This document shows positions 53,046-62,391 of a DNA stretch of 64,000 nt, piece by piece (position 1 is the stretch's first letter; the number at the start of each line of letters is the position of its first letter). A model generated the notes under the pieces. It was not told the origin of the DNA. It did not search any database and worked only from the letters and a program-made list of their open reading frames with translations. Position numbers and translations under genes: made by a program. This stretch comes from an uncultured Bacteroidales bacterium (GTDB lineage Bacteria > Bacteroidota > Bacteroidia > Bacteroidales > UBA932): contig ONQC01000005.1 of the NCBI GenBank assembly GCA_900319855.1, positions 16,442 through 80,441 on the forward strand. Direction: 5' to 3'.

Positions 53046-53194
53046 CCATTTGCGCATGTGCTTTGGTAAGTTGTTGACTGATTGTTTGTTGCAAAACGAG
53101 TTGCGCAAAAGGTCCTCAAAAACGAGGCCTTTTGCGCAACGTATTATGCGAATAATTGATAATCAATATGATATGGAAGGTCCTGCGCAAATGG
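53046..53194. repeat. Composite palindromic repeat 1 (TGCGCAAA type)
   Basis: Two 67-bp units in inverted order separated by 15 bases. Unit 1: CCATTTGCGCAT, 44 bases, TGCGCAAAAGG (ends 53112). Unit 2: CCTTTTGCGCAA (from 53128), 44 bases, TGCGCAAATGG. The inner half-sites form a hairpin (53101-53139) with 12-bp perfect outer arms plus CCTC/GAGG. The 44-base spacers are AT-rich and related when read in the same orientation (TTGA, GTT/ATT and AA-CG blocks). Copies 2 and 3 flank a RAYT transposase gene at 60.9-62.4 kb. It lies between uvrA and the DUF2807 gene. Confidence 0.8.
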
Positions 53195-59271: not shown

Positions 59272-59895
59272 ATGCACATCGGTATCGCAGGCAACATCGG
59301 CTCCGGAAAAACGACGCTCACCCGCATGCTCAGCGAGCATTACGGATGGACGCCGAAATATGAGGCCGTGACCTACAACCCTTATCTGGAAGACTACTAT
59401 AAGGATATTCCCCGCTGGTCGTTCAACCTGGAGATGTATTTCCTGGAGCAGCGCTTCAAGGATGTGCTGGAGATTGCGCGCAGCAAGGAGACGGTCATCC
59501 AGGACCGCACCCTGTTCGAGGGCGTCTATATCTTCGTGGCCAACAACTACGAGATGGGGAACCTCTCCAAACGGGACTTCGACACGTACATGGGCATGTT
59601 CAACCTGCTGATGTCGCTGGTCAGCCCGCCGGACCTGCTGATCTACCTGCGTTGTTCGATCCCGCATCTGGTCTCCCAGATCCAGAAGCGCGGCCGCGGC
59701 TACGAGCAGAGCATCAGCCTGGAGTACCTGGGCGGCCTGAACGAGCGGTACGAGAAGTTCATCGCCGAGGACTACAAGGGCCATGTCCTGGTCATCGACG
59801 CGGACGACCTGGATTTCGAAAACCGCCCCGAGGACTTCGCGCACATCACGGACAAGATTGATGCGGAACTGTTCGGTTTGTTTGGAAACAATTAA
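59272..59895 (+). CDS. Deoxynucleoside kinase 1
   Basis: A 207-residue P-loop kinase of the deoxyadenosine/deoxyguanosine kinase family, which salvages deoxynucleosides to monophosphates. The P-loop is GNIGSGKTT at 7-15. The DR-type motif is VIQDRTLFEG, and the lid region is IQKRGRGYEQSI. It is followed after 11 bases by a paralogue. Specificity cannot be assigned from sequence. Confidence 0.92.
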   Translation: MHIGIAGNIGSGKTTLTRMLSEHYGWTPKYEAVTYNPYLEDYYKDIPRWSFNLEMYFLEQRFKDVLEIARSKETVIQDRTLFEGVYIFVANNYEMGNLSKRDFDTYMGMFNLLMSLVSPPDLLIYLRCSIPHLVSQIQKRGRGYEQSISLEYLGGLNERYEKFIAEDYKGHVLVIDADDLDFENRPEDFAHITDKIDAELFGLFGNN

Positions 59896-59906
59896 AAGTT
59901 AACGAT

Positions 59907-60527
59907 ATGCATATAGCCATCGCCGGAAATATCGGCAGCGGGAAGACCACGCTGACCAAGATGCTGGCCGCCCACTACGGCTGGACGCCGCGGTTTGAGT
60001 CCGTAGACTTCAACCCTTACCTCGCCGATTTCTACGAGGACATGGAACGCTGGTCCTTCAACCTGCAGATCTATTTCCTCAACAAACGTTTCAAGGACGT
60101 CGTCGAGATCTCCAAGTGCGACGATGTCATTATCCAGGACCGTACCATCTATGAGGATGCCCGGATCTTCGCCCCGAACCTCCATGCCATGGGGCTGATG
60201 TCCAGCCGGGATTTCGAGAACTACTCCGACCTGTTCGACCTGATGATGTCCCTGGTCCGCAAGCCTGACCTGCTGATCTACCTGCGCAGTTCGATCCCGA
60301 ACCTGGTCGCCCAGATCCAGAAACGCGGCCGCGAATATGAGAAAAGCATCCGCATCGACTACCTGACCGGCCTGAACGAGCGTTACGAGGCCTGGATCAA
60401 GGACTATGACGGCAACCTGCTGATCATCGACGCCGACCGCTACAAATTCGGTAATAAACCCGAAGATTTCCAGGCGGTTACCGACATGATTGACGGTCAG
60501 ATGTTCGGTCTGTTCCCCCAGAAATAA
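59907..60527 (+). CDS. Deoxynucleoside kinase 2
   Basis: A 206-residue paralogue of the kinase encoded just upstream, about half of its residues being the same. The P-loop is GNIGSGKTT at 7-15, the DR motif VIIQDRTIYEDA and the lid IQKRGREYEKSI. In bacteria with two such enzymes, one commonly handles dA and the other dG or dC as a heterodimer; a similar arrangement is possible here but not shown. A weak hairpin (CTTACA, TGTAAG) follows the stop. Confidence 0.92.
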   Translation: MHIAIAGNIGSGKTTLTKMLAAHYGWTPRFESVDFNPYLADFYEDMERWSFNLQIYFLNKRFKDVVEISKCDDVIIQDRTIYEDARIFAPNLHAMGLMSSRDFENYSDLFDLMMSLVRKPDLLIYLRSSIPNLVAQIQKRGREYEKSIRIDYLTGLNERYEAWIKDYDGNLLIIDADRYKFGNKPEDFQAVTDMIDGQMFGLFPQK

Positions 60528-60872: not shown

Positions 60873-60958
60873 ACCTTTTGCGCTCTTCGCTGCTCTCCGT
60901 CGGCTCCCTTACGGGGCCTTTTGCGCTCTTCGCTGCTCTCCGTTGGCTCCCTTGCGGG
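60873..60958 (+). repeat. Tandem 43-bp repeat, two copies
   Basis: Copies at 60873-60915 and 60916-60958 differ at two positions. Each begins with CCTTTTGCGC, the half-site of the adjacent composite repeat, followed by a GC-rich 33-base filler. A third CCTTTTGCGC at 60959 starts composite repeat 2. No gene is supported between rubredoxin and the RAYT gene. Confidence 0.8.
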
Positions 60959-61109
60959 GCCTTTTGCGCAAGTGCTTTTATAACTATTTAATGATCAATT
61001 ACATAGGATTTGCTCTGCGCAAATGGCACCTCCGATGGACCCCCTTTTGCGCAGGGGCTTTCGCAATAGGTCGATTATTAGTATATTAGAAAACGCACTG
61101 CGCAAAAGG
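60959..61109. repeat. Composite palindromic repeat 2 (TGCGCAAA type)
   Basis: Unit 1 is CCTTTTGCGCAA, 44 bases, TGCGCAAATGG (ends 61025). After 16 bases, unit 2 is CCTTTTGCGCAG (from 61042), 45 bases, TGCGCAAAAGG. The arrangement equals that of the copies at 53.1 and 62.3 kb. It lies 66 bases from the 3' end of the RAYT gene. Confidence 0.8.
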
Positions 61110-61180
61110 TCCTCCTCGTTCAGAAAACCTGACAGAGGGCCTCTGCCCGAGGGACCTGTCAGAGGTCCTCTTCGTTCAGA
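61107..61180. repeat. 18-bp direct repeats at the 3' end of the RAYT gene
   Basis: AGGTCCTCCTCGTTCAGA at 61107 and AGGTCCTCTTCGTTCAGA at 61163 differ at one base and are 56 bases apart. The second overlaps the RAYT stop codon. Between them are CTGACAG and CTGTCAG inverted arms and a CAGAGG/CCTCTG hairpin. Confidence 0.65.
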
Positions 61181-62195
61181 GGACTTGTTGGAGAAACTCT
61201 TCCGGGAGAGAGAGAACCCTGGCAAGCTGAGCGATCCCCGCACCGAATCTGCGGTGCAGGGTGCGGGCCAATGTGAGCAGATCCTTTCTCTCCAGCAGTT
61301 CAGGACGTCTGGCGCTGAATTCCGATCTGCATAGAATCAGGGCCCTGGCGGCCAGTTCACTGTCGCTGAATACCAATCCATCAGAAAGACCCTGTTCCTT
61401 TTCCATGAGGGATTCCGTTTTAAAATCCTTCAGGTGGTTGAAGAAGTCCCTGCTGTCCACGAACCGTTCCATGACGGTCGTGTAATCCACAAAACACCTC
61501 TCGAGGATGACGCCGTCATGGAATTCATAGTCTTGCTGGAGTTTCATCCGAGTGCGGAAGATGTCCCGATATTCCCTGTCGGACAAGGATCGGACGGGTA
61601 TGCCTCTTGTCAGGCTGAGATCGGGATTGAAATACAACCTGACGGGACTCCATTTGTACGATATCGGCGAGGCGATGCCTGCTTTATAGGGATTGCGAAG
61701 GATGTAGGCAACTTCACGGCGGAACTGCTCGATGGATGTGACCGCTACCGGGTAATAGTCGTCCGCTCGCAGGATCTCCCGGATGCCATCCCTGCGGGCG
61801 ACCAAAAGGGAAAGCCGCCACAAGTACCGGGTCATGAACTGCCGGCATTCCTCCCATGTCCCGGATAACAGCAGATGGACATGGTTGCTCATCAGGCAAT
61901 AGCATAGTAGGGAAACGTTGCTGTTTGCCACCAGCAATGCCAGGGAATTTACCCCATATTTGAAGTCCTCGTCCGTCCGGAAGAGCAACCGGTCCTTGAG
62001 TGCTTCCGTCGATAGGTGGAAGAAGCCTTTTTTTCCATGGAAAGGGTCATTGAATTCCTTCATCTTTTCATTCTTTATAATCGTAGCAGCAACTCCCCAT
62101 TCCGAGGATTCTTTCATCCTTAGGGGTGGGGAATCCCATGAAAAGGTAGGCATCTTTCCCGACTCTATTCTCGAAACATTGCTCGGCGATGCCAT
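61176..62195 (-). CDS. REP-associated tyrosine transposase (RAYT, Y1 HUH family)
   Basis: A 339-residue protein with a Y1 transposase domain. The metal-binding HUH motif is H105-V-H107 in LMSNHVHLLLSG. The likely nucleophilic tyrosine is Y164 in VAYILRNPYKAG, a strong RAYT signature. A C-terminal segment (about 290-335, RRFGAGIAQLARVLSLPEEF) looks like a helix-turn-helix. An alternative ATG at 62063 gives 295 residues and starts closer to the conserved domain. RAYTs bind and cut single-stranded REP hairpins. The flanking TGCGCAAA-type palindromes on both sides are therefore its likely substrates. Confidence 0.85.
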   Translation of the reverse strand: MASPSNVSRIESGKMPTFSWDSPPLRMKESSEWGVAATIIKNEKMKEFNDPFHGKKGFFHLSTEALKDRLLFRTDEDFKYGVNSLALLVANSNVSLLCYCLMSNHVHLLLSGTWEECRQFMTRYLWRLSLLVARRDGIREILRADDYYPVAVTSIEQFRREVAYILRNPYKAGIASPISYKWSPVRLYFNPDLSLTRGIPVRSLSDREYRDIFRTRMKLQQDYEFHDGVILERCFVDYTTVMERFVDSRDFFNHLKDFKTESLMEKEQGLSDGLVFSDSELAARALILCRSEFSARRPELLERKDLLTLARTLHRRFGAGIAQLARVLSLPEEFLQQVL

Positions 62196-62241
62196 TTTTC
62201 CGTTTTTTTATTGCCATTTTTCTTTTTTTTATTCTGCGACC

Positions 62242-62391
62242 CCTTTTGCGCAACCCCTGTGATAATGTGGTGAAAATCATTCTTGTATAAATCGAGTCGC
62301 GCAAAAGGGGTGTCGGGAAGGCCCCCTTTTGCGCAACAGTAAAATCAAAATGTTGATAGCCAGGAAGTTATCGAACCCCTTGCGCAAAAGG
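62242..62391. repeat. Composite palindromic repeat 3 (TGCGCAAA type)
   Basis: Unit 1 is CCTTTTGCGCAA, 44 bases, CGCGCAAAAGG (ends 62308). After 16 bases, unit 2 is CCTTTTGCGCAA (from 62325), 44 bases, TGCGCAAAAGG. The inner hairpin GCGCAAAAGGGG/CCCCCTTTTGCGC is strong. It lies 46 bases upstream of the RAYT start codon. It fills most of the gap between RAYT and uraA; the rest of the gap holds the uraA promoter. Confidence 0.8.

Follow-up and report, generated by a model that had tools for sequence, protein, structure and literature searches.

A RAYT-like gene of a Bacteroidales bacterium flanked by four-arm composite repeats with a constant layout, a conserved core and half-site words that differ among relatives

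Boccard and Prentki reportedly found in 1993 that the interval between the inverted arms of the RIB elements of E. coli binds IHF. Several related systems are described in the accessible portions of the papers cited here. The inter-REP sequence of the E. coli BIME-1 interacts with IHF, and RAYTs and REPs co-evolve (PMC2817692); GTAG is described in REP processing (PMC8266576). In TIRtrons, a RAYT-like HUH-Tyr gene (TIRYT) lies between inverted repeats that have no relation to GTAG REPs; some of these repeats are self-complementary or doubly palindromic, many stand in dimers or clusters, and the motif GGGGWSAS is common to some TIRs (PMC3733652). In Bacteroidetes, TnpAREP genes of subclass 2.6 (Bertels group 5) are flanked by "atypical secondary structures" that have copies elsewhere in the genome (PMC6006769, in its accessible part), and such structures beside these genes had thus been published already. 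The layout reported below was not met in the accessible part of a REP survey (PMC12306157), and our literature search, with subscription papers mostly outside its reach, returned no paper that we recognised as describing this architecture.

Anatomy of the locus

The window, that is, the whole stretch of 64,000 nucleotides from an uncultured Bacteroidales bacterium that was analysed, contains on its minus strand a RAYT-like (Y1/HUH) transposase gene (61176..62195) encoding a protein of 339 aa whose C-terminal extension is about 150 aa long. The gene stands between two composites of about 150 bp, composite 1 at 60960..61109, on its 3' (downstream) side, and composite 2 at 62242..62391, upstream of it; 66 bases separate composite 1 from position 61176 and 46 bases separate position 62195 from composite 2, and both this arrangement and these distances had been correctly given by the first-pass annotation. 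Each composite consists of two 65-bp units (60961-61025 and 61044-61108 in composite 1; 62243-62307 and 62326-62390 in composite 2, one arm of which is CGCGCAAA), and each unit of two inverted arms of about 10 bp around 45 nt. The second unit begins 83 bp after the first, leaving an inter-unit gap of 16 nt in both composites with the CCw/wGG flanks excluded. The unit model gives E values of 2.4e-10 and 1.6e-10 for composite 1 and of 2.4e-7 and 2.3e-8 for composite 2, all four being self-scored, as these units belong to its training set. The octamers TTTGCGCA and TGCGCAAA have 45 nt between them in 4/4 units of these composites; the interval first proposed, 44-45 nt, was right in being of fixed length and takes the single value of 45. 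The flanking pair proved to be an incomplete set, since a third, dispersed composite lies 7.8 kb away at 53046..53194, with its units (53047-53111 and 53129-53193) 82 bp apart.

Immediately outside composite 1, a 43-bp tandem repeat on the plus strand (60874..60960) contains CCTTTTGCGC words recurring every 43 bp, which are possibly decayed half-sites. Near the RAYT locus, the window also contains two similar ORFs in tandem (59272-60527), nucleoside-kinase-like by eye from their translation.

The pattern TTTGCGCA-N{40,50}-TGCGCAAA occurs at five sites in the window, all of them N45, and at none in 100 shuffles. In the own genome (2.15 Mb, 60 contigs, 91% complete) the search for further copies suggested at the outset found the spacing kept, with seven exact sites, N45 in 7/7 even if intervals of 40-50 were allowed, and none in the reversed control. 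Allowing up to three mismatches, in a search fixed at N45 in which other interval lengths could not appear, 17 places were found vs 4 in the control, and 14 of the 17 make up seven composites, so that the genome total is 14 units in seven composites, three of them within the window. The interiors have diverged among these copies. Several composites are overlapped by mechanical ORFs that look like spurious frames or gene ends, and an Rfam search of the seven own-genome loci placed no family on the composites, returning nearby only a tRNA and one match below the gathering score.

The encoded protein matches NCBIfam REP_Tyr_transpos at E 5.3e-9 (36.1 bits, under the cut-off of 80), as do 26/27 subclade members at E<=0.01, and Pfam Y1_Tnp at E 0.045, also under the cut-off. 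His105, His107 and Tyr164 are invariant in 27/27 aligned subclade sequences (the broken genes of L027, L028 and L059 being left out) and, judged by position, are presumably the catalytic residues; the Y motif reads YILRNP, the P being replaced by A, G, C or S in some relatives. The predicted model has a mean pLDDT of 78, with residues 1-43 below 50. Its best Foldseek hit is 4er8, the E. coli RAYT with a REP hairpin (E 2.1e-4, TMt 0.59), which is also its sole PDB match at E<=0.001; with 165 aa and 146 alignment columns, this match would by its length cover the catalytic part. The C-terminal end appears helix-turn-helix-like by eye. A PDB sequence search gave one chance-level match with the protein as query and none with the profile. 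An IS200/IS605 insertion sequence with near-identical copies does not fit, given that the closest RAYT paralogues of the own genome are 33% identical and their flanks differ. Four other RAYTs of the own genome (L023, L024, L025 and L026, on contigs C37, C21, C26 and C28) have unrelated repeats of their own nearby, namely arrays of 51 bp on either side, copies of 91 bp that are 96% identical, a four-arm unit of GGCGCAGGT, and TACGGTTGGA words.

Core, layout and words

We aligned 62 units, 14 from the own genome and 48 from 19 relative loci; six units of length other than 61, 63 or 65 were skipped with their partners retained, we omitted L053 and L067, which are near L052 and L065, as well as the right flank of L063, which has an odd geometry, and the left flanks of L054 (score 27) and L063 (28) were put in by eye. 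The interiors of these units, which had been selected by their arms, align gap-free on the dyad TTTTGYAA-N4-yTGAnnnTCAr-N4-TTRCAAAA. In an example unit of the window this core region spans 60976..61010, unit columns 16-50, and the same kind of core occupies columns 16-50 of the window's other five units. The spacer that the first-pass annotation had described as constant in length and variable in sequence is thus constant in length, and its sequence holds a conserved core. The motif YAANNNNYTGA falls on one register in 34/62 units (5/14 own, 29/48 from relatives) and at six neighbouring registers in none, the shuffled interiors giving a mean of 0.07 and a maximum of 2. RAYT loci that took no part in the training yielded 21 further units, with a model that already contains the core; the motif stands at the expected register in 8 of these and elsewhere in 2.

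This dyad resembles two inverted IHF-type sites. With an IHF-type consensus that we take to be WATCARNNNNTTR (related form WATCAANNNNTTR), a motif chosen after the core motif had been seen, matches occur in 19/56 relative units vs 0.4 in shuffles, near-identical L052 and L053 both counted, and in 1/14 own units vs 0.09; the full consensus is present in 14/62 units of the whole unit alignment, and the looser TCARNNNNTTR in 5/14 own units vs 0.4 in shuffles. Only one clear HU-family gene was found in the own genome, at 91% completeness; it lies at G000:C12:12177-12443 and encodes 93 aa.

Ten of ten arm pairs covary when columns are shuffled across units (z 6.4-10.2); they are 87% paired, with changes on both sides in 10/10. 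The selection of units by the inversion of their arms inflates the arm covariation and leaves the inner result unaffected. The pair next to the arms covaries weakly (z 2.2), and the inner pairs (columns 12-32) give no covariation (z -2.3 to 2.1). We reject a base-paired stem as the meaning of the inner palindrome for this lack of covariation and for helices 2 and 3 being 61% and 63% paired vs 87% for the arms, even though nested three-stem hairpins, as a stem reading would expect, are the predicted fold of two single units, the second ones of L015 and L018. We read the core as a probable protein site in duplex DNA. The Bacteroidota -7 promoter, which we take to be TAnnTTTG, occurs inside 0/62 units (shuffles mean 3.2), which argues that the units are not promoters, and the dif-like half-site motif, as we presume it to be, likewise occurs inside 0/62.

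A RAYT at E<=1e-60 is present in 32/300 genomes of the genus sample, and related RAYTs (37-46% identical) are often flanked by composites of the same geometry with other half-site words. A four-arm scan with no word given (unit length 57-65, gap 16-29, periods 73-94 permitted) covered 59 flanks of 30 RAYT loci; 29 flanks, from 21 loci, score 29-40 of 40, with 118 shuffled flanks at 27 or less, and nine loci have no flank scoring at least 29. The period in the 29 well-scored flanks is 83 in 18, 85 in 5, and 81, 82, 84 or 78 in the other six, so that periods within 81-85 apart from 83 amount to 10/29 and 78 to 1/29. In loci hit by the model, the best partner stands at 82-83 bp in 22/30, and 17 of these 22 have at least 15/20 arm bases alike. 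The words among relatives include GGCATCCATG, ACCTTCCAT, CCTGGAAC, CCTTCCAG, GTTCGGAACC, GCCTGCGG, GTCTGCGGAT and GCCGGGCTGG, besides others.

As a mark of the repeat family, TTTGCGCA, to which the first-pass annotation had tied it, has to be given up: the unit with this word was found in no other genome of the family sample (149 genomes), where the 11 stray sites of its type, spread over 10 other genomes, are spaced at 33-59 and never at 45, and the arm-extended TTTGCGCA pattern gave 0 matches in genome_contigs, from which the own record may be left out. Word similarity follows RAYT identity (Mantel Pearson 0.52, p 1e-4; Spearman 0.26, p 0.002; n 19), with r dropping to 0.23 once pairs of >70% identity are removed. 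Genome G289 contains two RAYTs of different clades, and the units near the one differ in word from those near the other.

Two loci (L158 and L174) have units with a GTTAGCAC-type word whose best partner stands at 125 bp instead of 83 bp, possibly a second layout. At L036, copies of about 180 bp (1236-1417 and 2382-2562) flank a RAYT of another genus (G016); their composite layout is a different one, in which CCCCGACTTAA and AATCCACAG arms are nested.

Distribution and turnover

The unit model matches 109/300 genus genomes at E<=0.01, in a search that scored at most 17 candidates per genome on both strands, so that per-genome numbers are not copy numbers. Matches to the subclade profile break off at E 2.4e-103 and resume at 2.8e-84, and 33 genomes fall at E<=1e-100. 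Units are present at E<=0.01 in 33/33 genomes with the subclade vs 76/267 without it, and at E<=1e-4 in 32/33 vs 36/267; 28/33 have them below 1e-5. As 20 of the 33 genomes trained the unit model, we also considered the 13 non-training ones, in which units occur in 13/13 at 0.01 and 12/13 at 1e-4 (Fisher p 1.8e-7 and 2e-9, the species not being independent). The expectation that the repeats go with this RAYT group is borne out by these counts.

At subclade RAYT loci outside the training set, 10/11 match at E<=0.1, with the best E per locus from 4e-10 to 4e-4 and L068, which has no right flank, as the exception; among the ten, seven have a pair at 82-84 bp, two (L053 and L067) have a close counterpart among the training loci, and one (L069) has its hit 1 kb away from the gene. 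Outside the subclade 1/18 RAYT loci match (L009, E 0.029). Units were also found beside RAYTs of neighbouring clades (G169, G379, G210:C2). In G379 such a RAYT, at L164:551-1502 beside composites, is apparently split between two overlapping frames. Other RAYTs often seem to stand with other repeats: in 6/17 loci the two flanks have more 10-mers in common than any pair taken from different loci (max 5), and L024 and L025 have longer-range repeat copies, with none shared at L022. The units in genomes without the subclade RAYT (36/267 at E<=1e-4) show that the RAYT link is not exclusive.

In the family sample at E<=0.001, units occur in 23/149 genomes, 5/11 of the genus and 18/138 of other genera, with a best E outside the genus of 3.7e-8 (G134); they are found in 9/25 genera, which rules out confinement to one genus. 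No RAYT of this kind was found at E<=1e-40 in 16 of the 18 other-genus genomes with units. In the order sample, matches are weak (E 1e-4 to 8e-4) and number one or two per genome in 8/294 other genomes. Six family-sample loci, five of them from other genera and one from the own genus, have cores that look alike; the own-genus locus has a clear partner (15 of 20) at 84 bp, the partner at 84-86 bp being no better than background in the other five, and a RAYT lies within the stretch in one of the six (L242, E 4.6e-21). Outside the genus but within the family, L238, L239, L241, L242 and L243 have this core, with no clear 83-bp partner. On these matches, the unit is a feature at the level of the family; it is most frequent with this RAYT subclade and not exclusive to it. 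The first-pass annotation's proposal of a distinct RAYT-repeat family keeps its association with the subclade, and "Bacteroidota" was too wide a range for it.

The close species G292 and G210 have blocks 89-97% identical over 60 kb and both keep the two RAYT-flanking composites. None of the five dispersed G292 composites in this syntenic stretch has a counterpart in G210 at E<=0.01. At three aligned sites G210 is without the composites, with no clean empty site or target duplication at any of the three, and at 161288 the whole spacer differs, with a terminator-like hairpin, by eye, in G210. Dispersed copies, as these alignments read, come and go between close species. L232:6288-6435 is the G292 composite of a gene spacer in which G210 has such a hairpin instead (by eye). 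A 4.4-kb G292 stretch with two similar composites (L230:3870-8330) is absent from the syntenic place in G210; two long ORFs, lipoprotein-like by eye, lie between its composites.

Explanations and comparison with known systems

The explanation that we prefer, tentatively and with a confidence just short of even, is that the composites are sites cognate to this RAYT, in which the word evolves and the core is conserved and probably bent by HU/IHF. The two inverted half-sites of a unit, of about 10 bp each, would carry the word recognised by the RAYT, and the interior would be a symmetric core bound in double-stranded DNA by an HU/IHF-family bending protein or by the RAYT itself. The unit would then fold, bringing together half-sites about 55 bp apart centre to centre, and the RAYT may process a strand where the duplex has opened locally, the likeliest place being the central hairpin of arms 2 and 3. 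In each lineage RAYT and word would change jointly, with geometry and core staying fixed. RAYT binding, bending, strand cleavage and dispersal by the RAYT are the steps that we infer here. A stronger version, which we regard as a more doubtful possibility, is that this RAYT lineage targets a bent double-stranded nucleoprotein site instead of a guide-tagged single-stranded hairpin, that the word drifts as a species-specific code with spacing and bend site frozen, and that each paralogous RAYT keeps a private word.

It is less probable, and in our opinion unlikely, that the composites are ordinary REPIN-like substrates, with the RAYT reading single-stranded hairpins (arms 2-3, or 1-4 around them) exposed in replication and the interior serving as an AT-rich linker. 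Folding agrees with such substrates, since all ten strands that were folded exceed the shuffle mean in stability (z -2.6 to -7.1; -4.6 to -7.1 for the window composites on both strands) and arms 2-3, with a spacer of 17-20 nt, can form a REP-like hairpin; the match of the predicted model to hairpin-bound 4er8 and the REP-RAYT coupling established elsewhere (PMC2817692 and PMC8266576, accessible parts) point the same way. However, a free linker needs neither an interval of exactly 45 nt nor a conserved core, the inner motifs lack stem-type covariation, and GT[AG]G, looked for only in the 10 nt beside the outer feet of 27 composites, is present at 4/54 feet with about 3 expected. The fixed length, the near-fixed period, the non-covarying core and the absence of this guide favour a folded duplex site over a plain guide-tagged hairpin.

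Improbable in our view is a TIRtron-like mobile unit, of which the composites would be the ends and the dispersed copies non-autonomous, MITE-like derivatives: the composites on either side of the gene, the existence of dispersed copies, the 0/5 matches in G210 and the 4.4-kb stretch absent there are in line with it, but the interiors of own copies have diverged, the three aligned sites lack a clean target duplication or a precise empty site, and the closest own-genome paralogues are so distant (33%). Also quite unlikely is a host element, such as a nucleoid-protein clamp or a transcription-boundary element, with the RAYT gene next to it maintained for unrelated reasons; such an element would fit the IHF-like core, the terminator-like hairpin that stands in G210 in place of a composite and the units in genomes without the subclade RAYT, but not the half-site words that track RAYT identity, the two RAYT clades of G289 near units with different words, the turnover of dispersed copies between close species or the 0/62 for the -7 promoter motif. 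The units in other genera make our preferred reading of cognate RAYT sites slightly weaker and the host element slightly stronger.

These loci bear on how domesticated single-strand transposases and their repeats switch partners yet stay paired. A word that differs by species, with layout and inner motif constant, constitutes a natural test of enzyme-repeat co-evolution, and since many species-level pairs share one geometry and core with different words, recognition residues, spacing and bending could each be examined by exchanging a single element between natural pairs. If the IHF/HU-type core is real, RAYT-linked repeats would be joined with IHF-bound BIME/RIB elements, both known from E. 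coli.

Compared with the systems described so far, each in the accessible part of its source, our locus shares flanking structures and dispersed copies with TnpAREP subclass 2.6, from which it differs in its protein, of 339 aa with YILRNP instead of 179 aa with YIH[QN]NP (PMC6006769, table); the accessible text does not describe how the structures of that subclass are laid out. As in TIRtrons, the inverted repeats around the RAYT-like gene of our locus bear no relation to GTAG REPs; a fixed four-arm geometry, a conserved inner core or recoding between species are not described for TIRtrons in the accessible part of PMC3733652. Canonical REP/REPIN and RAYT systems, like ours as we read it, have a cognate repeat that flanks the gene, is dispersed and co-evolves (PMC2817692, PMC8266576, both in part). 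Those repeats have a GTAG-type guide, a short hairpin of 20-50 nt and high copy number, whereas here we found no guide at the outer feet, 65-bp units, a fixed 45-nt interval and seven composites in 2.15 Mb; the absence of the guide there sets the units apart from canonical REPs, from which the first-pass annotation had distinguished them by their large intervals. With BIME-1/RIB, as far as the accessible text describes them, the locus has in common two inverted palindromic arms around an interval, which is IHF-bound there and here only resembles an IHF site. The arms of those elements are GTAG-tagged REPs in high copy number, whereas ours are untagged half-sites of about 10 bp, arranged in pairs of units at about 83 bp, with seven copies found and a symmetric core.
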